Virus record (IMG/VR): IMGVR_UViG_3300009129_000093
Location: 1 to 22,389 of that record
Reading direction: 5' to 3' (one strand)
Length of the DNA stretch: 22,389 nucleotides
Source of the DNA: a virus
The position numbers were made by a program, and so were the translations under genes. Of the stretch, positions 6,419 through 22,389 are shown piece by piece. The stretch's first letter is position 1; each line of letters starts with the position of its first letter. The notes beneath the pieces were generated by a model, which saw only the letters and a program-made list of their open reading frames with translations, was not told where the DNA came from and did not search any database.

Positions 6419-6757
6419 ATGACATATTCACGATACGCCGGCAGAAGAATATTCAAGAATGACGACCCCAACTACAGGAATGTATTTTTCCGCAGAAGAG
6501 GGATCAAGGAAACTTACCAGTATGAATCTCCTCAGTTTTCTTATCCCTCTAATGATTATATATCCGACCTCACAAACGTAACCGAGGTTTGGAGAGCAAC
6601 AGACAAACTTTATAATGTCTCTAATGAATATTATGGTTCACCCGATTATTGGTGGGTCATTGCATGGTATAACAAAAAAGGCTCAGAAGCAGAGTTTAAA
6701 GTAGGTGATATTTATTATGTTCCTCTGCCTCTCCAAGATGTATTGGCGTTCTTCTGA
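6419..6757 (+). CDS. Baseplate wedge protein gp53-like with LysM-like C-terminus
   Basis: This 112-residue protein starts 5 nt after the previous stop. The C-terminal half, 'DKLYNVSNEYYGSPDYWWVI' followed by 'AWYNKKG' and 'VGDIYYVPLP', is the LysM-like core found in T4 gp53 and its relatives. There it helps fasten baseplate wedges around the hub. The N-terminal half has 'YRNVFFRRRGIKETYQYESP' and an aromatic segment also typical of short gp53 proteins. T4 gp53 is 196 residues, so this is a short form. The TGA at 6755-6757 shares its A with the ATG of the next gene, implying translational coupling. Confidence 0.85.
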   Translation: MTYSRYAGRRIFKNDDPNYRNVFFRRRGIKETYQYESPQFSYPSNDYISDLTNVTEVWRATDKLYNVSNEYYGSPDYWWVIAWYNKKGSEAEFKVGDIYYVPLPLQDVLAFF

Positions 6758-9519
6758 TGTCTCCTCCCCCCAACCACTTGGATCATTGGAAAAAGCGAGC
6801 CGGGATACCAACTCCGGGCTCTGAGGAAGAAGCCGAAACCGCCCGGGCCCGAGCCGGACTACCGGGTGGTGGTCGTGGTGTGCCATCCGATGTCGCCAGA
6901 GACCGCGCGAAAAAAGAAGCCGAGAAAAAGCGGATAGAAAAGGAGAAAGCCGAGGAAGCCGCCCGTATTGCTGCCGGCAAAGCAGATGTTCGCATGACAG
7001 GGCAAGAGGTTTTGATCGCCAACATGGCAAAGATCAAGCAAGAAACTTCAGTAACCTCAGCCCCGGTCACTCGCAACATTCCACTATCGCCGGCCAAAGA
7101 AAGATTCAAAAGAAGAAACAAATATGTTATTCCAGCGGCTGGAATGTCGCCGCAGGGTGTCTTAGAACTCTTACAGCCTACGGACATGTCATCGTTTTTG
7201 CATGCCACTCCGGCACAATTATCCTCACTCATGCCGTTATTGAGGTTTTTTATTGTTTCAAGGGAAAAGAATAAAAAGACAGGAAGACCACTCCAAAAAG
7301 AGGTATACTTTAGCGACCATGCGAGCGAGAAAAAGATAAAGAACCTCGCCGCTGCCCGCCGGGCAAACACAATTTATGACCCAGAAGATGATCGGTCAAA
7401 TAGACTCTTCAGTAAAGGTTCCGAGGTGGGAATAAAAAGCTTTACTTGGGATTATCACAACAAGCACGAAGGTGATAAGATCATCAAGGCAAAATTAGAA
7501 TTATATTTTGGCACACTGACAGAGCTTATAAATAAAGAGTATTTAAATTTCATCTTTACTAACGGAAAGAAACACCCATCGGACCCGGCAGTGACTGGAG
7601 GCGACCATGCTGGCATCGCCGGACGAATGAAGAGGCTCCGCATTCGCCAGGATAAGCTTCAAGCGTCGCTAAAGCCAGGAACAGCACCACCAAAGAATAA
7701 GAACGACAAAGTGACAGATGACTTTAAGCAACTCAAGGTAGCGGTAGGGTGGTCAATACCAAAAGGAAATAAAGCGGATTTAGAAAGGTTGTTTGGCAGT
7801 AATTCAAAAAAACTTCAAAGCTTCAAAGCCGGCGTCCGCAACACACAAAAAGTTATTCTTCTTAATCTCACAAATTATGATGTGAATTTCTCTCAAGAGG
7901 GTCCGGTAACCCTCACGTTGGACTATGTGGGCTCTTCAGATAGTTATCTCAACTCTGTAGAGTCTGACATTCTGGGGGAAAATAATTTTTCTCAAGGAAG
8001 TCTGAATAGTCAACAAGTGATGATCTATGCCGAAGGTTTGCTCAAGGACTTGTCAAACAAAAAAATAGACCCCGATGGGTATCTTTATCATCAAATGACC
8101 TCTGACAGCTATGGCAAAGAGCTTATCAAAGCGACGGGCAAAATACCTGTGCGTTTAGATAGGCTCTTGAGGGAGTCTGACTTTATCGCAACAAAGAGGG
8201 AGTTGGCAGTCTTAGAAGAGTCTTATGGTAGCAATACGAACCCCCAGGCTCAGAAAAAAGCTTTAGCTATACTAGATGGCTATGCAGAGTCAGTAGAGAA
8301 AGCCTACCTAAAGGCTAAAAAAGAATTACGAGTTAAAAGGTATGCATCCCTTATCAACAACCTTATCGGCGGCACTGGACATGGTTCTCGTGTGTATGTA
8401 GCTCATGCAACGAAGGGGGCTGATGATCAAGTTGATATCAAAATCGGCGGATCCGGCGCGACGTCTGCAACTAAAGCCAGAGAACGACTTCAGAAGCTGG
8501 CAGAAATGACACCAGAAGACCGCGCCAAGTTTATAGAAAGTGAAGAGAGTAGTCCGCTTAGTAAGACATTCACTCGCGGAGCTAAAGAAGGTCCACCCTC
8601 AAATAAACCTGAGTATATGGCGATACCTTTTGTGCTTTTTGGCGACATTGTTGTTGCCGCTATGCAAAATGCAGATATGAGGGAGGATATTAAACTTATC
8701 TTTGGAACTTTTACTCCCACGCTTTTAGGTGTCCCTGGCTATATGGATTGGTACAACCACTACAACGAGCCAATTTATGATATCCCCATTGCTTTAGATT
8801 ATTTGGTCCAGTTTTTGTTTGATAATATGGTAGACAAAGACCGTGATGAATATCCTTTCCGGCTGTTCTTTGATCAACTGCTGAGTGCCATAACCATGCT
8901 CCTAAATAACCAGAGCGAATATAAGATGAGGATTTCGTTTGACTATACCTTGTACATGACCCAGCACGAAATCAAGCCAGAAAAAGATAGGGATTTGATG
9001 CTGTTGTTGAAGGATGATTTTCCGGAGATTAAAAGAAACCTATTTAATCAAATCGTGTCATCAAGCAAGCCCATTATGAGCTATTATGTACTGTTCGCCA
9101 GACAGATTGATACTGACTTTACGGGTGACCGAACCAAAGATGAAAAGGCTGGAATCTTTCACTATGCGCTTGGGGCAGACAGAGGTATTGCAAAAAACTT
9201 TAATTTCTCTAAACAAGACGTACCCCAATTTCAGGCTATGTTGGTGGAGGAACTGAGACAAGACAACCGATATCCGAATGCTTTAATCTTGCCGCAGAAT
9301 ATTTCGCTGGACATGGTAGGAAATACTTTACATAAGAATGGCGATTTGATTTGCATTGACAGTCGCGCGGCTCTTGGGAGCATGGCAAACGAGGTCTTGG
9401 CTCTTGGGGGGTATTATAGAGTTGTCCGATCTTCTAACCGGATCAGCAACCAAGGTTATTCAACAACAGTAGACGCAGTGTTTCAGCATCGCATGAGAAA
9501 CAAAAAGAGTAAAAAGTAA
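6757..9519 (+). CDS. Large baseplate-associated structural protein, function unknown
   Basis: This 920-residue protein starts at ATG 6757, overlapping the gp53 stop by one base. Residues about 15-75 are strongly charged (RARAG..., then 'KKEAEKKRIEKEKAEEAARI') and likely form an extended coiled coil. The rest looks globular, with alternating beta-rich segments such as 'GIKSFTWDYHNKHEGDKIIK' and 'NFSQEGPVTLTLDYVGSSD'. A hydrophobic segment, 'IPFVLFGDIVVAAMQNA' (from about residue 624), and an aromatic 'PGYMDWYNHYNEPIYDIPIA' follow. I recognise no catalytic motif. Its place between gp53 and another structural gene points to a baseplate or hub component. A gp27-like hub or a wedge scaffold are possibilities, but neither is shown by the sequence. 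Confidence 0.8.
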   Translation: MSPPPNHLDHWKKRAGIPTPGSEEEAETARARAGLPGGGRGVPSDVARDRAKKEAEKKRIEKEKAEEAARIAAGKADVRMTGQEVLIANMAKIKQETSVTSAPVTRNIPLSPAKERFKRRNKYVIPAAGMSPQGVLELLQPTDMSSFLHATPAQLSSLMPLLRFFIVSREKNKKTGRPLQKEVYFSDHASEKKIKNLAAARRANTIYDPEDDRSNRLFSKGSEVGIKSFTWDYHNKHEGDKIIKAKLELYFGTLTELINKEYLNFIFTNGKKHPSDPAVTGGDHAGIAGRMKRLRIRQDKLQASLKPGTAPPKNKNDKVTDDFKQLKVAVGWSIPKGNKADLERLFGSNSKKLQSFKAGVRNTQKVILLNLTNYDVNFSQEGPVTLTLDYVGSSDSYLNSVESDILGENNFSQGSLNSQQVMIYAEGLLKDLSNKKIDPDGYLYHQMTSDSYGKELIKATGKIPVRLDRLLRESDFIATKRELAVLEESYGSNTNPQAQKKALAILDGYAESVEKAYLKAKKELRVKRYASLINNLIGGTGHGSRVYVAHATKGADDQVDIKIGGSGATSATKARERLQKLAEMTPEDRAKFIESEESSPLSKTFTRGAKEGPPSNKPEYMAIPFVLFGDIVVAAMQNADMREDIKLIFGTFTPTLLGVPGYMDWYNHYNEPIYDIPIALDYLVQFLFDNMVDKDRDEYPFRLFFDQLLSAITMLLNNQSEYKMRISFDYTLYMTQHEIKPEKDRDLMLLLKDDFPEIKRNLFNQIVSSSKPIMSYYVLFARQIDTDFTGDRTKDEKAGIFHYALGADRGIAKNFNFSKQDVPQFQAMLVEELRQDNRYPNALILPQNISLDMVGNTLHKNGDLICIDSRAALGSMANEVLALGGYYRVVRSSNRISNQGYSTTVDAVFQHRMRNKKSKK

Positions 9520-11054
9520 TGGCTATCCAGAAAGACAAAAAACCAAACCCAGAAGAGGACATTTTACGCTACTCTTATGGCTCTAATAATTTGGGAGCTA
9601 AAACAATCTTCAACGAAAGACAAAGATATAATAATAATATCTTCCCACCAGACCTAATCAAGAACTCCACTAGCACATGGACTACTGAGAGGTTTTATGG
9701 GATTGTTAGCACAAAGGGCAATACTGTTGTTGTGGACCAAAAGCAACTTAAGCCAATGCGCTATACCGCTGAAACACAGTTTGTTCTGAATTTTGTAGCT
9801 GATGCTTGGAGAGACTTTGCAGAACGTGTTAGGTCTCTTGGCGACCAAAACCTAATTTATAAAGACAGTCCGTGGTTTGACCCGAAGGTTATCAAGGCAT
9901 GGGCACCGGCTTCTACACAATATGACAACTATATGCGAGAAGACGTGTATAGTGTCTTCAACACCACCTTCCTACCTTTGGGCGGCAAAGACAGAAGAAT
10001 CACAGACATTGATAGTTTTCTCAGTGTGTTTGATGAGTATATGGATATGGTAGTTTCGCTAGTGGGTCCAATCACTTTCAGTGGATTTTTGGAAGGCGGC
10101 ATCATGTCGCCCCTGACTTCTGGGCTTATGTTAGAGATTGGCAGCCAAAACCCAAGCGAAGACTTTCCAAAGTCATATGAATACTTGGACGAAAATTTTG
10201 AACTCATTGCTCATATAGCTGCTCAATATGGATTTATGATAGACCGAAATATTCCATGGCGTTTGGTTGCTGATCTCCGCAATGAAGCCATGCAAGAATA
10301 CATGTATGGTGTGCCTATTGAAGAATTTGACAGCGCGAACGTGGTGACAGAATGCGACCCTACTTTGCAAGACCCAGAGTTAGCACCCATGGCATTTGGA
10401 TATTCCCAGGTTCCCGGTATGGAAGATATTATGCGCCGTGTAGCAGTTCACTTTGATGAAAACGGAGAGCCCCAGCCGGGCTATCAGGAGTACCAAAGCG
10501 TCAAAGACGCGTCCTCTCAGCAGCAAGTATTTCACATTTTGTTCTCTACAGCATATGATGAAACATGGAACTCGGACGCAGACAGCCTCCAGACTTACTT
10601 GATCAACTTTTATAACACTTATGTTGCAACGCTTCCAGTTGTCAGTGTTCGTGAGGACTTTGTTCATGTTGATTGCACTCCGGAGACTGAGATCATTGAG
10701 CGCCGTCAGATTGACGAATCAGAATTTAAAGCCGCTTATGGTGACAGGTGGAAACTGAAGACGTTCTATATTTCCCGCCTAGCAGAGCGTGACCCTGAGA
10801 GGTCAACCAGGCTCAGAAGACGCGAGGTCCAGCAGATCATGAACATTTATAACCTGAGCGCGCGCAACGGCTATAACCGCGCACTGCGATATATTCAGGA
10901 AGAATACATCGGGCCATATGATATTGATCCATTAACATTGGACACTGTAGGGGATATAATTGAGTCTGATCCACGATCGCGAAGAATTGAGAGTGTAAAT
11001 GATATTTCAAACATTGGACGACAAATCGGATTGCGTCGGGATCTATACTCATAA
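9519..11054 (+). CDS. Conserved virion structural protein, function unknown
   Basis: This 511-residue protein has an ATG at 9519 that shares its A with the preceding TAA, so it is coupled to the large structural gene. It opens with a Lys-rich tail. The body has few basic patches and many aromatic/acidic segments, for example 'ENFELIAHIAAQYGFMIDRN' followed by 'IPWRLVADLRNEAM'. There is no enzymatic motif, signal peptide or membrane helix. The last 19 codons (10999-11054) are also read in another frame as the start of the DNA polymerase gene. It ends the run of tail/baseplate genes, so a baseplate or neck role is likely, but this is inferred from context only. Confidence 0.8.
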   Translation: MAIQKDKKPNPEEDILRYSYGSNNLGAKTIFNERQRYNNNIFPPDLIKNSTSTWTTERFYGIVSTKGNTVVVDQKQLKPMRYTAETQFVLNFVADAWRDFAERVRSLGDQNLIYKDSPWFDPKVIKAWAPASTQYDNYMREDVYSVFNTTFLPLGGKDRRITDIDSFLSVFDEYMDMVVSLVGPITFSGFLEGGIMSPLTSGLMLEIGSQNPSEDFPKSYEYLDENFELIAHIAAQYGFMIDRNIPWRLVADLRNEAMQEYMYGVPIEEFDSANVVTECDPTLQDPELAPMAFGYSQVPGMEDIMRRVAVHFDENGEPQPGYQEYQSVKDASSQQQVFHILFSTAYDETWNSDADSLQTYLINFYNTYVATLPVVSVREDFVHVDCTPETEIIERRQIDESEFKAAYGDRWKLKTFYISRLAERDPERSTRLRRREVQQIMNIYNLSARNGYNRALRYIQEEYIGPYDIDPLTLDTVGDIIESDPRSRRIESVNDISNIGRQIGLRRDLYS

Positions 11055-12219
11055 CAACTTGATCTTTGATCCGGACCAGTTTCCGGACTCCTTAAGTAAG
11101 ACTTGGAAATATGCTCCATACTTGCGAGATCTAGATGTTGACTATGTTTCCCTCTATTTGGAAGGCGGCAAGATCGCTGACAATATCCCCGAATACCTAC
11201 AAGACGATTGGGAAGATGTGTCAAGGAAGGTTCAAGCCTTTAAGCGTTCTCTCAGCATTTCAAAGGTTGATACATTTGAGAACTGCTTCTTTGATTTGGT
11301 GCCGCAGCGATTCTTGATGGAATTTTGCGAGGTAAAAAACAAAATCTGTGAACATATCTTGAAGACAATAGAGAAGCCAAAGCGATATAAATTCTACAAG
11401 CACATCTCTATGATGCTGGGAGACATTGCAGCCCAACCAATCAAGATCAACACGAGAGAGGTTAAATCCCTGGCTAAAGTTCCAAAGCTCGCAAACCAAG
11501 CAAAAGCTATCCTAGCGTCACCACCACATGTGAGCTATAATCAGTTCGGAACTAAGACCGGCAGACTCACGACCAAGAGGGGATCTTTTCCGATCCTAAC
11601 TCTCAACAAGGCTTTTCGGTCTGCTATTTTACCAACCAATGATTATTATTTGGAATTGGATTTCAACGGGGCTGAGGTCCGAACCCTCCTGGGGCTGCTG
11701 GAGAAGCCGCAGCCCGACGATGATGTGCATGATTATCACTTGCAAGAGGTGTTCACTGATCTTGTCTCGCGAGAGGATGCAAAGGTTGCCTTCTTTTCAT
11801 GGCTTTATGGCGCAAAGTCCTCAGATATGCGCGCACAAGCGGACAAATTAGCCTCATTTTATGAAAAGGATCTCCTGCTAAACAAATATTGGGATGGCTC
11901 AACAGTTAGAACGCCGTTTGGGAAGCAAATTTCTGATACATCTCGTCATCACGCTCTGAACTACCTTGTGCAGTCTACCGCAGCAGAATTGACGCTAAAG
12001 CAGGCTCTAAAGCTTGAGCACGTCCTAAAAAAACACTCTTGTGGATCTACTGTTGCCTTTTTGATTCATGATGCGGTCGTACTGGACATGAAAAACGAGG
12101 ATGAACATCTAATTAACACATTAGTATCTTTGATGACTTCCACCAACTTCGGGAAATTCAAGGTAAACATAAAAAGAGGTAAAACTCTTGGTTCTATGAG
12201 GGCGTCGCGACTTGGATAA
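10999..12219 (+). CDS. Small family A DNA polymerase (polymerase domain only)
   Basis: This 406-residue protein carries the family A core. Motif A is 'LELDFNGAEVRTLL' with D221. The O-helix motif B has exact spacing (R258, K262, F266, Y270, G271). Motif C reads 'FLIHDAVVLD' with H357-D358-A359. The classical third residue of motif C is Glu (E883 in E. coli Pol I); here it is Ala. 'GTKTGRLTTKRGSFPILTLN' before motif A matches the usual primer/template loop. No 3'-5' exonuclease (DxE) or 5' nuclease domain precedes it; the first 150 residues are probably a thumb-like region. ATG 10999 is the only reasonable start, has only weak Shine-Dalgarno matches, and lies inside the previous gene. A TTG at 11059 is an alternative. 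Its role is unclear, since a DnaE-type polymerase also occurs at the end of the window; repair, recombination or primer processing are options. Confidence 0.85.
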   Translation: MIFQTLDDKSDCVGIYTHNNLIFDPDQFPDSLSKTWKYAPYLRDLDVDYVSLYLEGGKIADNIPEYLQDDWEDVSRKVQAFKRSLSISKVDTFENCFFDLVPQRFLMEFCEVKNKICEHILKTIEKPKRYKFYKHISMMLGDIAAQPIKINTREVKSLAKVPKLANQAKAILASPPHVSYNQFGTKTGRLTTKRGSFPILTLNKAFRSAILPTNDYYLELDFNGAEVRTLLGLLEKPQPDDDVHDYHLQEVFTDLVSREDAKVAFFSWLYGAKSSDMRAQADKLASFYEKDLLLNKYWDGSTVRTPFGKQISDTSRHHALNYLVQSTAAELTLKQALKLEHVLKKHSCGSTVAFLIHDAVVLDMKNEDEHLINTLVSLMTSTNFGKFKVNIKRGKTLGSMRASRLG

Positions 12220-13069
12220 AGTTATCGGATTGGGCAAAACGGGCTGTTTCATAGCGGAACAACTAACAAAATACCCAGAGTACAGAATTTATAAAATAGA
12301 TGCGGACCTTGATGAGCGAGGAGGCTTATCGCTAGCGCCGCAGCCAGATGCTGAGTCTTATGAAGAAAGCATAGACCAGCAGGAGGTCTCTGTTTATCTG
12401 CGCTCAATAAAGGAGGGCGACGAAGTTCTGATGGTTGTGGGCGGTGGCGAGCCGATCACAGGAGCTTCTCTGAGGATCTTAGAAACAATCAAAGATGCGT
12501 GCCTTCATGTGCTCTATGTGTGCCCGGATAGGTTGATGAGTTCGGAGCAACAAAAGATAGACGACAAGATTACATTTAATATTTTGCAAGAATATGCCCG
12601 CAGCGGGGTGTTTGAAAATATATTCTTAGTGGACAGGACAAGGGTAGAGGCACTCGTCGGCGATGTTTCAATACATGATTATGAGAGTAGTATCTCGTAT
12701 TTTATTGCCTACGTTGTAGCAATGATTAATTATTTCAATCACACCAAGCCGATCCTGGCTAATAAAATAGAGCCTAGAAACATTGCCCGCTTAGCAACCT
12801 TTGGGGTCTCCTCTCTGGAGGAAGACCAACAGGACACAAAACTATTGTACCCCCTGGAGTCCGCAAGGGATATCCACTTCTTTTATGGGGTTCCTGAAAA
12901 AATGCTAGCAGATGATTCCTCCCTGATGAAAAAGATCAAAAATCATGTAAAAAGTTACAAACAAGACGATATATCAAGTAGTTTTTCAGTATACTCTACG
13001 AGTTTTGACGATTTGATGGTTCTTTGTCTCGCCTATTCCTCGCAGATTCAGCCGCTTTTAGAAGGCTGA
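12212..13069 (+). CDS. Divergent FtsZ/tubulin-like protein
   Basis: This 285-residue protein starts at TTG 12212, overlapping the polymerase stop by 8 nt; no ATG lies close to the start. It follows the FtsZ N-domain order. 'DKVIGLGKTGCFIAEQL' (residues 2-18) corresponds to the first glycine loop, and 'YRIYKIDADL' to the FtsZ 'NTDAQ' strand. 'VLMVVGGGEPITGASLRILE' (G77-G79, T83-G84) lies at the tubulin signature loop. 'FENIFLVDRTRVEALVGD' matches the FtsZ 'VIPNDRLL' strand and helix. The T7-like loop would be 'ANKIEPRNIARLATFGV'. The signature GGGTGTG is degraded, and the two catalytic aspartates of the T7 loop appear as E and N, so GTP hydrolysis may be weak or lost. A second domain fills residues about 205-285. 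A generic Rossmann protein is the main alternative. I place the assignment at moderate confidence. Confidence 0.6.
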   Translation: MDKVIGLGKTGCFIAEQLTKYPEYRIYKIDADLDERGGLSLAPQPDAESYEESIDQQEVSVYLRSIKEGDEVLMVVGGGEPITGASLRILETIKDACLHVLYVCPDRLMSSEQQKIDDKITFNILQEYARSGVFENIFLVDRTRVEALVGDVSIHDYESSISYFIAYVVAMINYFNHTKPILANKIEPRNIARLATFGVSSLEEDQQDTKLLYPLESARDIHFFYGVPEKMLADDSSLMKKIKNHVKSYKQDDISSSFSVYSTSFDDLMVLCLAYSSQIQPLLEG

Positions 13070-13102: not shown

Positions 13103-13128
13103 AATCAACATTGACGAGGGATTTATAT

Positions 13129-13575
13129 ATGAATCAGCCTAGGGGCGTTTTGTTGGCATCTTTTTTGAAGGGTGCCTCAGAGGAGCAAATACTAGAAGAG
13201 GTAGAATTCATAGCTAATAAGCTAAATTTGACGAATAAGTTTATTTTCCTCCTTGAAGATTTAGAGAATCCGGATAATAAATTTCTCACATATAATGCAG
13301 TGGTTAGTCGGGATAGAACATTCAATCCCCGACTTTATACTATTCGGGTCCACCGAAAGAAGCAGACCAACACCCTTTACACTATTAATGCATTGAATAA
13401 GGCTGTTGCCTTGGAGCACGATGGTCAGACTGGAAAGCACCTTAAACTTAACTGGGAAGGGTATCGCGACAGCGTTCTGTTGACTGCCGGCAAAGACCTG
13501 CGAGTCCACAAAATTAGCGTCTCCAAGATCTTTAAAATAGAAGATGAGCCGGCTCCCACCGAGCCCGCCGAGTAG
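13129..13575 (+). CDS. Conserved-looking protein of unknown function upstream of the ssDNA-binding protein
   Basis: The best start is ATG 13129, with GAGGG at 13116-13120 and an 8 nt spacer. It gives 148 residues; the in-frame TTG at 13111 is less likely. The protein is soluble and lacks cysteine clusters. An N-terminal helix-strand unit includes 'ILEEVEFIANKLNLTNKFIF', a beta-rich middle includes 'LYTIRVHRKKQTNTLYTINA', and it continues to 'LKLNWEGYRDSVLL'. It ends in a short acidic, proline-containing tail ('EDEPAPTEPAE'). Such tails are common in replication accessory proteins. Its place between the tubulin-like gene and the gp32-like gene suggests a replication or regulatory role, but nothing identifies it. 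Confidence 0.75.
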   Translation: MNQPRGVLLASFLKGASEEQILEEVEFIANKLNLTNKFIFLLEDLENPDNKFLTYNAVVSRDRTFNPRLYTIRVHRKKQTNTLYTINALNKAVALEHDGQTGKHLKLNWEGYRDSVLLTAGKDLRVHKISVSKIFKIEDEPAPTEPAE

Positions 13576-13694: not shown

Positions 13695-14468
13695 ATGGGT
13701 ATTGATCTTGCAAAGATGCGGCAAAAGCACGCCGCTCTTACCACCAAGGGGGGCGACTCCTCCGACAGTTTTTGGAAGCCAGAAGAAGGCACACACCAGT
13801 TGCGGCTAGTGTGTCCACCAAATGGCGACCCTTTCTTTGAGGCATATTATCATTACGGCATGGGTGCCGAAGGTAAAACAACCGTCCTCAGTCCTCGCAC
13901 GAATGGCGACCCCGATCCCATCGCAGAGTGGGGAACTCGTCTTTGGAACGAAGGTACCGACGGCTCCAAGGAGGCAGCCAAACGCTTTTGGCCTAAGATG
14001 CGAGTTTTTGCTCCCATCGTCGTTCGTGGCGAAGAGGACAAGGGCGTTCGCTGGTGGGGCTTTTCCCGCACCACCTACCAAGCACTACTTGATGTAGTTC
14101 TTGACCCTGAGTACGGTGACATTACTGACACCGAAAAGGGAACGGACCTGCGTATTGACTATGGCAAGAAGTCTGGTCAAGCCTTTCCGACGACTGATGT
14201 CCGCCCGATGCGCCGCACCAGCAAGTTGGCGAAGACAGAAGAGGAGGTCAACACTCTTCTGGAGAGCATCGTCCCAGCTACTGATATTTTTGATGTAGCT
14301 ACCTACGAGGACTGCGAGAAGGTTCTCAACGAGACTCTTGGGGATACGGAAACCACCACTGGATCCGAAACCACCCAGTACAATAACAGCAACGAAGCCA
14401 CGAAGCCAAACATTAGCTTAGAGGGCGTTTCTGATATTGAGTCAGCGTTTGACGATCTATTGGCGTAG
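13695..14468 (+). CDS. Single-stranded DNA-binding protein (gp32-like), zinc ligands absent
   Basis: This 257-residue protein starts at ATG with AAGGAG at 13684-13689. It has the gp32 build: an N-terminal basic helix ('LAKMRQKHAAL', the self-assembly end in T4 gp32), an aromatic-rich OB-fold core ('FWKPEEGTHQLRLVCPPNGD', 'RVFAPIVVRG', 'VRWWGFSRTTYQALLDVV'), and an acidic C-terminal tail ('IESAFDDLLA') of the type that recruits replication partners. In T4 gp32 a loop with H64, C77, C87 and C90 binds zinc. The matching region here, residues 65-80 ('LSPRTNGDPDPIAEWG'), has no cysteine, so this version is probably zinc-free. The adjacent uvsX gene supports the call. A dedicated promoter and palindrome lie upstream. 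Confidence 0.88.
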   Translation: MGIDLAKMRQKHAALTTKGGDSSDSFWKPEEGTHQLRLVCPPNGDPFFEAYYHYGMGAEGKTTVLSPRTNGDPDPIAEWGTRLWNEGTDGSKEAAKRFWPKMRVFAPIVVRGEEDKGVRWWGFSRTTYQALLDVVLDPEYGDITDTEKGTDLRIDYGKKSGQAFPTTDVRPMRRTSKLAKTEEEVNTLLESIVPATDIFDVATYEDCEKVLNETLGDTETTTGSETTQYNNSNEATKPNISLEGVSDIESAFDDLLA

Positions 14469-14510: not shown

Positions 14511-14525
14511 TCTCCATTATGGAGA
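14511..14525 (+). promoter_or_regulatory. Palindrome that would sequester the uvsX Shine-Dalgarno
   Basis: TCTCCATTATGGAGA is a perfect 15-nt palindrome. As RNA it can fold into a 5-bp stem, UCUCC/GGAGA, with an AUUAU loop. The 3' arm contains the GGAG (14521-14524) that serves ATG 14531. Base pairing would block initiation of the recombinase unless melted. It could alternatively be a DNA operator. Confidence 0.55.
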
Positions 14526-14530
14526 TTAAA

Positions 14531-15601
14531 ATGGCTAGAGGAGCTACAAACTCCCTTGTAAATGATTTGCGCAGCGAATTAAACAAGGCAGCTAAAGAAA
14601 ATATAGCATATGACCTGCATGGGGATAACCCAACTGATGTGAAGACTTGGATCCCCACCGGCTCCACTCTTCTTGACTATATTATTTCTAACCGCCGAAA
14701 TGGTGGCATTCCTGTCGGCAAACTCACTACGATTGCTGGTGAGTCTGCCAGCGGTAAGAGCCTCATCGTCACACAGATTTTGGCGAACACACAAAAGATG
14801 GGAGGGCTCGCTGTCTATGTTGATACCGAGAACGCAGCTTCTCCAGATTTCATGGAGCAGTTGGGACTTGACACTAAGAACAACTTCTTGTATGTCCAGC
14901 CCGGCACCGTTGAAGAGGTTTTTGAGAATATTGAGCGCTTGATTGGACGCATCCGCGAAAAAGCACCAGACAAGCTTGTGTGTATTGTTTGGGACAGCGT
15001 TGCCGGCACACCAGTCAAAGCGGAAGTTGAGGGCGACTATGATCCCAACAGCCGTATCGGTCTGACAGCCAAGGCTCTAGCTAAAGGCATGCGAAAAGTA
15101 ACGGAGACATTAGGTAAAGAACAAATTGCCCTTGTCTTCACGAACCAGTTGAAAACCAACATCGGCGTGATGTTCGGAGACAACCGAGTTGAGCCCGGCG
15201 GAAAGGCTTTGCCCTACCACGCCTCTACTCGTATCTGGCTGACCCAACACAAGGGCAAGGCCAATGGAGAAATCCGCAACGAGAAGAAGCAGGTCATCGG
15301 TTTTCACACAAGTGCCAAGACCATGAAGTCCCGTTTCGGACCTTCACCAAGGAGTTGTCAGTTTGATGTGTTGTTTGACCTCGCTAATGACCGAGTTGGG
15401 ATTGATGATGAAGGTTCCTGGCTTGCTGCCATCGCTGGTACGCCTGGCTGCGTTCGCAGTGGTGCTTGGTACACTATCAGTATTGACGGGGAAGATAAAA
15501 AGTTCCAAAGTAAGGACTTTCCAAAGCTTCTAGAAGACAAGAAATTCAAAGAAAGAGTTCTTGACATTTTAGAGGATGAGTGTAGAATAGGTAAGAAGTA
15601 A
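14531..15601 (+). CDS. uvsX: UvsX/RecA-like recombinase
   Basis: Start chosen at ATG 14531 because GGAG lies 6 nt upstream (356 residues). The in-frame ATG at 14519 has no ribosome binding site and would lie inside the palindrome. The RecA core is complete: Walker A 'GESASGKS' (G70-S77), the strand after it with 'LAVYVDTENAASPDF', Walker B 'LVCIVWDSVA' (D155), and the loop-2/PGG region 'NQLKTNIGVMFGDNRVEPGG'. The enzyme forms filaments on ssDNA and exchanges strands in phage recombination-dependent replication. Length is close to T4 UvsX (391) and RecA (353). The gp32-like gene directly upstream is its normal partner. No UvsY-like mediator was recognised in the window. The choice of UvsX over cellular RecA rests on context. 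Confidence 0.9.
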   Translation: MARGATNSLVNDLRSELNKAAKENIAYDLHGDNPTDVKTWIPTGSTLLDYIISNRRNGGIPVGKLTTIAGESASGKSLIVTQILANTQKMGGLAVYVDTENAASPDFMEQLGLDTKNNFLYVQPGTVEEVFENIERLIGRIREKAPDKLVCIVWDSVAGTPVKAEVEGDYDPNSRIGLTAKALAKGMRKVTETLGKEQIALVFTNQLKTNIGVMFGDNRVEPGGKALPYHASTRIWLTQHKGKANGEIRNEKKQVIGFHTSAKTMKSRFGPSPRSCQFDVLFDLANDRVGIDDEGSWLAAIAGTPGCVRSGAWYTISIDGEDKKFQSKDFPKLLEDKKFKERVLDILEDECRIGKK

Positions 15602-15617
15602 CAGGAATGTCCGACAC

Positions 15618-16049
15618 ATGGAGAGCGACCCGAAATATACGGTACGCAACAAGTATCTTAGGCTGGCCTTGCGCAGGATTGACGGCGAGCACTACAGCAA
15701 AGACCTTCAGTATAAACATGCTGCGGTTATTGTAAAAGCAGGACGCGTGCTATCCATTGGTCGCAATCGCGACAAGACGCATCCCAACTCTATCCTAATA
15801 GACGAGGATGGCAACTCTTATACTCTATCAGTTCATGCTGAAATGGATGCAATCTCTAGAGTTAAAAACAAAGATCAACTAAGGGGGGCAACAATTTACA
15901 TTGCTCGCAAAGGTCGCACAGGCCACCCTGGAATGTCTTGCCCGTGCAAGATGTGCCAGGATCTTATTAATAAATACGGAATGAAGCGCGCTGTCTTCAC
16001 CACTGATTATGGAAGTGGTACGCTAGAATTCACAGGAGAAGTAGCATGA
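15618..16049 (+). CDS. dCMP/cytidine deaminase-family zinc enzyme
   Basis: This 143-residue protein starts at ATG 15618 with AGGA at 15603-15606. The deaminase active site is clear: 'VHAEMDAI' gives the zinc His H73 and catalytic Glu E75, and 'CPCKMC' supplies the zinc cysteines C110 and C113 in the P-C-x-x-C motif. In T4-like phages dCMP deaminase makes dUMP for thymidylate synthesis. This protein is shorter than T4 dCMP deaminase (193 residues) and does not show an obvious allosteric insertion, so a general nucleotide or base deaminase remains possible. It sits among replication genes and ends in an ATGA overlap with the 5' nuclease gene. Confidence 0.82.
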   Translation: MESDPKYTVRNKYLRLALRRIDGEHYSKDLQYKHAAVIVKAGRVLSIGRNRDKTHPNSILIDEDGNSYTLSVHAEMDAISRVKNKDQLRGATIYIARKGRTGHPGMSCPCKMCQDLINKYGMKRAVFTTDYGSGTLEFTGEVA

Positions 16050-20453: not shown

Positions 20454-20680
20454 TGGCTACCTTGAATTTCATTATGCCTCCGCAAATTGCAGACGCGTTG
20501 TGCGAGAGAGAAGACACCAACAAGGTTCCCCACCGTTGGTTGCCCACAGGACAATCTAAGGCGATGCCTCATCGTCATGTTGGGGTGGAATGCTATTGCA
20601 AGCATTGCGGCATTCGCGAATGGGGCACTGTATCAGATATAGAATTTGTAATGATTTCAGAGTATTGGACAGAGTTATGA
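20453..20680 (+). CDS. Small Cys/His-rich protein, possible zinc finger
   Basis: This 75-residue protein starts at ATG 20453 with AAAGGA upstream. C47, C49 and C52 with H51 ('ECYCKHCGIREWG') form a compact metal-binding-like knuckle. H40, H42, C17 and H27 could supply further ligands. The sequence is otherwise unrecognised. Small zinc-binding proteins in phages are often transcription or DNA-binding factors, but that is only a guess. The TGA at 20678-20680 overlaps the ATG of the GroES-like gene at 20677, so the two are coupled. Confidence 0.75.
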   Translation: MATLNFIMPPQIADALCEREDTNKVPHRWLPTGQSKAMPHRHVGVECYCKHCGIREWGTVSDIEFVMISEYWTEL

Positions 20681-20937
20681 TGAAACCCTTGAACCGCAGA
20701 CTACTTATTGAAGTTGTGAAAGAAGAGCCGAGAACGGGCAGCTTCTTTGTTCCCCAGGAGGAAAAGCCGCAGGATTTTATTGTAGCCACTGTCGTCTCTT
20801 GTGCTGACAACTGTGCAGAAGATCTCTCCGGAAGGAGAGTGGTGGTACATGCTTTTGGTATTGAAAAGGTTACGGTTGATGGGAGCGAATATACATTTAT
20901 TGGTGAAAATCACTTAGTTTGCGTAACGGAAAAATAA
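20677..20937 (+). CDS. GroES-like co-chaperonin (gp31-type role)
   Basis: This 86-residue protein starts at ATG 20677 (ATGA overlap with the previous gene) or at the adjacent ATG 20680. It follows the cpn10 fold. 'MKPLNRRLLIEVVKEE' resembles the GroES start. A mobile loop with a hydrophobic tip, 'RTGSFFVPQEEKPQ' (residues 19-32, tip S22-F-F-V25), fits the GroEL-binding element. 'DFIVATVVSC' and 'LSGRRVVVHAFGIEKVTVDG' match the barrel strands, and 'ENHLVCVTE' the closing strand. GroES has 97 residues and T4 gp31 111, so this is a minimal form. Phage co-chaperonins pair with host GroEL to fold large capsid proteins. No phage GroEL gene is seen in the window. Confidence 0.72.
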   Translation: MMKPLNRRLLIEVVKEEPRTGSFFVPQEEKPQDFIVATVVSCADNCAEDLSGRRVVVHAFGIEKVTVDGSEYTFIGENHLVCVTEK

Positions 20938-21706: not shown

Positions 21707-21734
21707 AATATCACACCAAAATGAAAGATTGCTA

Positions 21735-22389
21735 ATGGTTAACCGCATTGAAAGCAAGATCCCTTTTGTGGGACTCCACGCTCACTCTGGACTCTCTCCA
21801 TTTGATGGCTTGGGCATGCCCAGCGAGCATATGGATTTCGCCTATGAGAATGGGATGAATGCCCACGCTCTTACTGATCACGGTCACATGAATGGGCTAT
21901 CATTTCAGGTAGAGCATTTGAAGAAAATGAAGGCAGACGGGAAAGACTTCAGGGCTCTCTATGGATGTGAGTCTTACTTCATCAAGTCCCATCGCAAATG
22001 GCGCACGATGTATGAAGAGCACAAAGCGAATTCCAAGCGGCAGAAAAAAGAAGAATACGGAATGGTCATTGAGGATGAGGATCGCCAAAAGAAGCGTAAC
22101 CCACTCAATGAACGCCGTCACCTTGTCATGCTAGCCCAAAACCAGACAGGTCTAAACAACTTGTTCAAGCTGGTGTCCGACAGTTATCAGCCTGAAAACT
22201 TCTATCGCTATCCCCGCATGGACTTTGAGATGCTGGACAAATACAATGAGGGGCTTATCATTAGCAGTGCCTGCATGTCCGGACCTTTGTTCGCAGACTT
22301 TTGGAAGAACCGAGATAAGAGCCCCGACCACGTTCTTTCAAAAGTCTGCGAACAAAGGTCCGGACATGCAGGCACTGCTAATGATAAGC
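21735..22389 (+). CDS. DNA polymerase III alpha subunit (DnaE-type), 5' part; 3' end runs off and is likely chimeric
   Basis: The reading frame from ATG 21735 is open to the window edge (218 codons visible). The N-terminus is a PHP domain. 'VGLHAHSGLSPFDGLGMPSE' gives the H15-x-H17 metal pair, and 'AHALTDHGHMNGL' with D48, H49 and H51 is the next metal motif. 'ALYGCESYF' and 'EGLIISSACMSGPL' also match DnaE. This is the family C replicase found in some phages in place of T4 gp43, and it would be the main replicative polymerase. The Shine-Dalgarno is weak. Bases 22332-22389 are an inverted copy of 22253-22310, so the last 19 codons are probably artefactual (see findings). The true protein continues beyond the window. 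Confidence 0.88.
   Translation, partial: MVNRIESKIPFVGLHAHSGLSPFDGLGMPSEHMDFAYENGMNAHALTDHGHMNGLSFQVEHLKKMKADGKDFRALYGCESYFIKSHRKWRTMYEEHKANSKRQKKEEYGMVIEDEDRQKKRNPLNERRHLVMLAQNQTGLNNLFKLVSDSYQPENFYRYPRMDFEMLDKYNEGLIISSACMSGPLFADFWKNRDKSPDHVLSKVCEQRSGHAGTANDK
22253..22389 (+). repeat. 58-bp near-perfect inverted repeat at the end of the window
   Basis: Arms 22253-22310 and 22332-22389 match at 57 of 58 positions. The inner 21 nt (22311-22331) form the loop. The left arm encodes expected DnaE sequence; the right arm is its reverse complement and reaches the exact end of the window. A microhomology GTTCTT at 22332-22337 is at the inner edge. It is most likely a fold-back chimera from amplification or assembly. 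Confidence 0.9.

Follow-up and report, generated by a model that had tools for sequence, protein, structure and literature searches.

A divergent protein with a predicted tubulin/FtsZ fold encoded behind a DNA polymerase gene in uncultured contractile-tailed phages

Results

Predicted fold and conservation

The IMG/VR virus record IMGVR_UViG_3300009129_000093 was analysed over positions 1 to 22,389, a stretch of 22,389 nucleotides to which we refer as the window. It encodes a 285-residue protein, designated here DTL as the name of a family of divergent tubulin/FtsZ-fold proteins (residue numbers are those of the window protein), which on the basis of structure prediction almost certainly adopts the tubulin/FtsZ fold. 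FtsZ, CetZ, TubZ, PhuZ and FtsZl1/2 are already known, and DTL appears to represent a new family, well supported by the models as regards its fold, that fails the GTPase-defining features tested. An earlier note on this DNA, made from the letters alone, had proposed a divergent phage protein resembling FtsZ/tubulin, in which the nucleotide and catalytic loops are altered, and this headline is borne out by two predicted structures that match tubulin/FtsZ. The open reading frame (ORF), its TTG start and its 8-nt overlap with a polymerase ORF are all present as that note described them. The features of DTL are:

12212 to 13069, plus strand: DTL, 285 aa, TTG start (ORF, 37-member alignment, AlphaFold models, fold matches)
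12227 to 12247, plus strand: T1-like loop GLGKTGC, residues 6-12 (37-member alignment; G6, G8 and G11 invariant)
12440 to 12463, plus strand: equivalent of the T4 signature loop, GGGEPITG, residues 77-84 (37-member alignment, hhalign)
12740 to 12790, plus strand: T7-H8 equivalent, residues 177-193, variable, with no conserved acid and no helix (alignment entropy, DSSP of both models)

AlphaFold modelled the window protein from a 20-row alignment with a mean predicted local distance difference test score (pLDDT) of 89.3 and a predicted template-modelling score (pTM) of 0.89, the five models ranging from 74.2 to 89.3. A family member that is 49% identical to it (L052), modelled from a 37-row alignment, reached a pLDDT of 92.1 and a pTM of 0.91, with all five models at least 91.0. 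In a Foldseek search of the PDB with the window model, FtsZ ranked first (E 6.8e-13, TMq 0.71) and TubZ appeared at rank 19, while VIA gave Z scores of 25.4 for CetZ, 24.1 for TubZ and 23.7 for FtsZ over 264-282 residues, with eukaryotic tubulins at about 22. The L052 model gave the same picture (25.3 for CetZ, 24.0 for TubZ and 24.3 for FtsZ). All of the chains that VIA realigned, 718 and 714 for the two models respectively, reached a Z of at least 8, and every one of the matches listed (50 per model) was an FtsZ, CetZ, TubZ or tubulin. An N-terminal Rossmann-like GTPase domain, a long H7 and a C-terminal alpha/beta domain are present in both predicted structures in a whole-chain alignment. 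Since differences of less than 1 in Z count as ties, DTL is not assigned to CetZ, TubZ or FtsZ. Among the models of the viral library BFVD, the best match is an uncultured phage 'FtsZ' of 452 aa with 13-14% identity. The earlier note had named a Rossmann dehydrogenase or another fold as the outcome that would speak against its proposal; structure prediction and fold search returned tubulin/FtsZ instead, and neither Foldseek nor VIA supports an ordinary Rossmann dehydrogenase or other enzyme.

Homologs of DTL were found in viral contigs at 23 loci by protein search and at 36 by profile search (the same contigs included), with identities to the window protein from 76% down to 44%. The 37-member alignment adds six of ten further loci that came from the search of TubZ records described below; duplicates and truncated members were omitted. 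The ratio of nonsynonymous to synonymous substitution rates (dN/dS) is 0.018-0.043 in the four of seven pairs for which dS could be estimated (dS 0.17, 0.30, 1.2 and 1.9, thus above 1 in two of these four), the synonymous sites of the other three pairs being saturated. Because 37 members can be aligned, dN/dS is low and a polymerase gene stands directly ahead in 36 of 36 loci, DTL is, as judged by sequence comparison, a real and conserved gene under strong purifying selection and not a chance ORF.

Searches beyond these viral contigs returned no relatives. There was no homolog among 50,697 phage records, and in GTDB genome contigs 57 pattern matches contained no true relative, a type of search that may overlook distant ones. 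The window protein had no match in Pfam and 20 members had only chance-level matches (11 families at E 10); in PHROGs the 37 members gave nothing credible (seven families, each in one member, best E 0.0068). A 20-member profile found no relative among PDB sequences, the top match being an unrelated ribosomal protein (E 0.56). As queries against viral contigs, the divergent member L052 retrieved only itself and E. coli FtsZ had no match. Among the matches listed in a literature search, with subscription papers outside its scope, no paper was recognisably on this family.

Nucleotide and catalytic loops

The labels T1-T7 and H1-H10 were assigned in DTL from the order of elements, not by coordinate superposition. 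The motifs quoted in the earlier note lie at residues 4-11, 27-33, 74-90, 138-151 and 184-199. Mean entropy across the 37 members is 0.63 bits in T1 and 0.74 bits in T4, compared with 1.30 bits overall. The family fails to show the GGGTGTG type of T4 signature, as the note had said of the window protein, and carries instead the pattern GGxPxxG, in which G78, G79 and G84 are present in 37/37 members and P81 in 35/37. Its 'GGG' loop stands as far as G78 and G79 are concerned, but the first glycine is partly accidental: residue 77 is glutamate in 23/37 members and glycine in 10/37. The placing of the loop agrees with hhalign, which pairs GGEPITGA with E. coli FtsZ GGGTGTGA in a weak alignment (E 0.13).

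The T6/H6 region (residues 141-149) is among the least conserved stretches of the protein (1.90 bits), and the T7 equivalent has a mean entropy of 1.66 bits, a value equalled or exceeded by 32 of 269 overlapping windows of the same length. Residues 186, 187, 189 and 190 vary between the near-invariant H177 and R193. According to DSSP, H7 (154-176) runs in both models to the strand at 194-200 without an intervening helix, so that H8 is missing; the local pLDDT of residues 181-190 is 75 in the window model and 86 in that of L052. The alignment thus lacks conserved acidic catalytic residues in T7, and the models lack the H8 that should follow them. The E and N that the earlier note proposed for the two T7 aspartates (residues 187 and 190) are not conserved, and with H8 missing from both models the change exceeds two substitutions. 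The chain ends nine residues past the last strand and has no C-terminal tail. S9 (0.80 bits) and H5 (0.82 bits) are well conserved.

Taken together, the alignment and models make it very likely that DTL keeps T1 and a modified T4, whereas T6 is no longer conserved and the catalytic acids of T7, helix H8 and a C-terminal tail are missing. In the available text of PMC3678025, subunits of tubulin, FtsZ and the phiKZ protein meet lengthwise in the protofilament through the T7 loop, S9 and the base of H8. Because T6, the T7 acids, H8 and the tail are lost, DTL as modelled is probably unable to polymerise with itself in the canonical way or to stimulate hydrolysis in a neighbouring subunit.

Comparison with known tubulin families

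No credible homology of DTL to FtsZ, PhuZ or TubZ emerged from the sequence searches of Pfam, PHROGs and the PDB. The window record has no match to TIGR00065 at E 0.001 or to PF00091 at E 10 (controls positive in 13 of 14 genomes each), and neither PF00091 nor the TubZ family PF22453 is among the 11 families matched by 20 members at E 10. With regard to PhuZ, none of the 37 members had a phrog_4733 match at E 0.1 (phiKZ control positive), and none of 20 had a PF22334 match at E 10. The profile-profile comparison advocated in the earlier note was carried out with hhalign. Beyond the E. coli FtsZ alignment given above, DTL aligned with phiKZ PhuZ at E 0.05-0.07 over a short, out-of-register stretch, and with the phage TubZ described below at E 0.0035 (score 29.8) when the phage G sequence was included and at E 0.032 (score 22.7) when it was left out. 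In controls, 60 column shuffles reached 24.3 and reversed profiles 20.7 and 21.1. Duplication of this TubZ as the origin of DTL is not claimed, since the score without phage G falls within the range of the shuffles.

TubZ (Bacillus plasmid TubZ/RepX and phage c-st TubZ) has a two-domain fold in common with DTL (Z 24.1 to 4ei7). Unlike TubZ, DTL lies beside replication genes and is devoid of PF00091 and PF22453 matches, GGGTGTG, conserved T7 acids, H8 (in the models) and a C-terminal tail. The archaeal CetZ proteins are the best structural match among those listed (Z 25.4 and 24.6), but are cellular and only 14% identical. FtsZ of bacteria and archaea has the same fold and order of elements and provides the top Foldseek matches; unlike FtsZ, DTL has no TIGR00065 or PF00091 match, no conserved T7 acids and, in the models, no H8. 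PhuZ of Pseudomonas jumbo phages, with which the earlier note had drawn its comparison, is likewise a phage protein of tubulin fold but a weaker match (Noxifer PhuZ, E 2.6e-6, TMq 0.51 in BFVD), DTL being nearer in fold to CetZ, TubZ and FtsZ. DTL is also without the PhuZ C-terminal extension, mutation of which stops PhuZ polymerising according to the available text of PMC3678025. FtsZl1, another divergent family of the tubulin superfamily, is described in the text available from PMC2875224 as having a T6-H7 region that is not confidently recognisable; unlike DTL, whose models keep the C-terminal domain, it is cellular, occurs in membrane-remodelling neighbourhoods, and has a coiled coil and no recognisable C-terminal domain. 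FtsZl1 and FtsZl2 are characterised by family-specific sequence and a coiled coil or a 300-aa C-terminal region; DTL has 285 aa and no long extension.

A second, TubZ-like tubulin in sister phages

A search of ten records with PF00091 revealed a separate ORF above the cut-off in four of seven DTL records and in none of three distant phages. The representative from L074 has 378 aa and matches both PF00091 (37.2 bits, cut-off 33) and PF22453, TubZ-like_C (31.8 bits, cut-off 26). Its nearest relative in the PDB is RepX/TubZ (E 7.8e-12), and its sole match among the phage records is a putative FtsZ-like protein of Bacillus phage G (21.8% identity). Among 16 aligned sequences the signature loop reads GGSGGGT in all but two, L160 (GGTGGGS) and phage G (GGTGSGS), and F247, D248 and D251 in T7 are invariant in all 16, phage G included. 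From its sequence, this second protein belongs with TubZ and is a canonical TubZ-like tubulin with intact signature and T7 aspartates. One copy of its gene (L075:2511-3647, minus strand) lies near an ORF whose translation reads like a large terminase.

A TubZ search of viral contigs confirmed 94 relatives, of which 80 were kept (79 at 85-100% identity and one at 65%), and every contig longer than 26 kb among these 80 entered the co-occurrence searches. In 14 records with both genes, the two share a strand and DTL follows TubZ at a distance of 28.5-32.6 kb. Of the 15 TubZ records that extend more than 29.3 kb downstream of this gene, 14 have DTL, the exception being G012. In one record found through DTL (G030), the end of TubZ lies 28.9 kb upstream. 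Both tubulin-fold genes thus occur in 15 of the 16 records long enough to tell, a number that may count some phages twice, as separate assemblies (DTL is identical in G009 and G010). The upstream reach of 16 DTL records in which TubZ was not found is too short to tell, G007 with 29.6 kb being borderline. Since the window begins only 12.2 kb before DTL, a TubZ of the window phage itself would lie outside it. A record of 84.6 kb (L160, IMGVR_UViG_3300030107_007800) carries a 65% identical TubZ and has no DTL or polymerase match; it is possibly a sister lineage with a single tubulin.

No phage with two tubulins was described among the matches listed in the literature search, which had the scope given above. 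The available text of PMC7824862 mentions two distinct FtsZ/tubulin representatives in jumbo phages, a statement that we read as referring to two families and not to two genes in one phage, and that of PMC7950403 presents the described phage tubulins (TubZ of phage c-st and PhuZ of jumbo phages) as one per phage.

Genomic context

The neighbours of DTL in the window are:

10999 to 12219, plus strand: small family-A DNA polymerase-like protein, 406 aa (PF00476, E 2.2e-15)
12212 to 12219, plus strand: 8-nt overlap TTGGATAA between the DTL start and the polymerase stop codon, measured in sister loci
13111 to 13575, plus strand: conserved orphan protein, 154 aa, the next gene downstream of DTL, without a PHROG match
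13695 to 14468, plus strand: single-strand DNA-binding protein (SSB; phrog_1192, E 2.8e-16)
14519 to 15601, plus strand: UvsX/RecA-like recombinase (phrog_97, E 5.4e-75)

Genes for tail sheath, tail tube, baseplate hub, tape measure and baseplate wedge precede the small polymerase, DTL, orphan, SSB and UvsX genes, which are followed by dCMP deaminase, exonuclease, DnaB-like helicase, ribonucleotide reductase and the start of another DNA polymerase (phrog_405). The window was previously taken for a compact genome; it is a 22-kb fragment, and the longest related contigs measure 172, 179 and 190 kb. Neighbours were examined at 36 loci, 20 short-flank loci of the same contigs being skipped. The orphan follows DTL in 34 of the 36, and the other two loci end before it. 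The polymerase-DTL junction was measured in 31 loci (five of the 36 omitted): 25 overlap by 8 nt, three by 1 nt and two by 13 nt, and one abuts, an arrangement that probably reflects translational coupling of the two genes. The small polymerase keeps the aspartates of motifs A and C in 32/32 aligned sequences.

Homologs of the orphan occur in Flavobacterium phage immuto, Microcystis phage Mel-JY01 and LR756508 (484 kb). In immuto and Mel-JY01 the orphan, SSB and RecA genes are found in the same order without DTL, while in LR756508 the orphan is separated from an ORF that reads as a putative polymerase-like protein by two ORFs, neither of them matching DTL. DTL was absent from all three at E 1 and even at E 10, and TubZ at E 0.001; LR756508 has a sub-threshold PF00091 match with an internal stop. 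This distribution is consistent with DTL having joined a replication operon that already existed, with its loss elsewhere as the alternative.

Several other features of these genomes were observed. The start of the second polymerase (21729-22388, phrog_405, DnaE-like by reading) indicates that the phage carries it beside the family-A enzyme at 10999-12219, whose motif C reads HDA or HDS and never HDE in the 32 sequences. Several sister loci (e.g. L037, L043, L044 and L047) have no match to the dCMP deaminase gene (15618-16049 in the window) at the position that it normally occupies. The region 20590-20937 gives a weak match to a GroES-like co-chaperonin (phrog_3188, E 2.9e-4), and two large conserved ORFs, 6757-9519 (920 aa) and 9519-11054 (511 aa), have no PHROG match at E 0.01.

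Discussion

We tentatively favour the view, at somewhat less than even odds, that DTL serves the phage TubZ filament as a non-catalytic seed, cap or adaptor and is tied to phage DNA replication. Because sister phages also encode a canonical TubZ, the partner role raised in the earlier note becomes more attractive. Lacking T7 and H8, DTL could accept the T7/H8 face of another subunit but not offer its own, and phage TubZ, whose T7/H8 face is intact, might dock on the conserved nucleotide-side face of DTL. A seed or end cap is the simplest use for such a protein, since the nucleotide-side face is kept, T7/H8 is gone and a canonical TubZ is found in the same phages. The operon position beside the polymerase suggests that DTL, made next to this enzyme, may anchor the filament to replicating phage DNA, and TubZ would thereby position the phage genome or the replication site. 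DTL might act in this way like gamma-tubulin, which seeds and caps microtubule minus ends. The proposed analogy is confined to a tubulin-fold seed at one filament end; gamma-tubulin has a full tubulin chain and works in ring complexes. The broader idea by analogy, that large contractile-tailed phages build a two-component system in which a TubZ motor filament is seeded and anchored at replicating DNA by non-catalytic DTL, comparable to a gamma-tubulin organising centre, must be considered doubtful.

Several observations weigh against a role at TubZ filament ends. The similarity between the DTL and TubZ sequences is at the edge of noise. Among 78 pairs (13 of the 15 records, G010 and G030 omitted) median identity is 55.5% for DTL and 93.1% for TubZ, and a fast DTL beside a nearly frozen TubZ does not fit a large obligate interface; the two identities correlate at no more than 0.46, a value confounded by phage ancestry. 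The genes are 28-33 kb apart, and one informative record (G012) has a 65% identical TubZ with neither DTL nor a polymerase gene match. Raw counts are also lower than those in the informative records (DTL in 10 of 22 TubZ records; TubZ in 8 of 27 records, comprising 24 with DTL and the three distant phages), because most records are too short for both genes. The seed or cap function is itself inferred, and any nucleotide binding, interaction or filament formation is hypothetical.

Of the alternatives, an unlikely one that nevertheless survives best is that of a TubZ-independent scaffold for the phage replication machinery, with DTL using a new contact to assemble into a polymer or ring of its own. 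Its fixed position behind the polymerase and ahead of the orphan, SSB and UvsX genes, the 8-nt overlap in 25 of 31 junctions and the conservation of S9 and H5 would be consistent with such a scaffold, but DTL has neither tail nor H8 for the usual contact, and the three distant phage records have a similar operon without it. We consider it quite unlikely that DTL and TubZ are two unlike subunits of one mixed filament, in the style of alpha/beta tubulin or BtubA/BtubB, with one nucleotide site structural and not hydrolysed. The presence of both genes in 15 of 16 informative records and the combination of one catalytic T7 (TubZ) with one degenerate T7 (DTL) would agree with this arrangement, but alpha and beta tubulin both keep T7 and H8, while neither DTL model has H8, and the two genes are non-adjacent and evolve at very different rates.

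The constant association with the polymerase gene (adjacent in 36/36 loci, overlapping in 30 of 31 measured) could also mean that the tubulin fold has been reused as a nucleotide-sensing or structural polymerase accessory without a cytoskeletal role. This has a similarly small chance of being correct: the co-occurrence of a canonical TubZ would then be coincidence, and we know of no tubulin-fold polymerase subunit. It is very doubtful that DTL binds host FtsZ, poisoning the division ring and keeping the infected cell long. The DTL fold does match bacterial FtsZ, and a capping poison would presumably have to lose one longitudinal face, but there is no significant sequence resemblance to FtsZ, and DTL is strongly constrained and lies behind the polymerase gene in every locus examined, in which it differs from typical accessory host-takeover genes. 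Finally, it is highly improbable that DTL is an ordinary Rossmann-type enzyme resembling FtsZ by chance, as the weak Pfam matches of some members (ATP-grasp PF02955 in 6 of 20, best E 0.016; TrkA_N in 2 of 20, best E 0.039) might hint, when two confident models match tubulin/FtsZ across both domains with Z of about 25.

These results describe a group of uncultured phages of up to 190 kb with two tubulin-fold genes, one of which was missed by the sequence libraries searched. DTL adds a deeply divergent branch to the tubulin/FtsZ superfamily and, if the models are correct, a natural case of a tubulin fold without T7 and H8. It can now be tested whether filament nucleators have evolved in phages and whether a viral cytoskeleton and the replication of phage DNA are physically connected.

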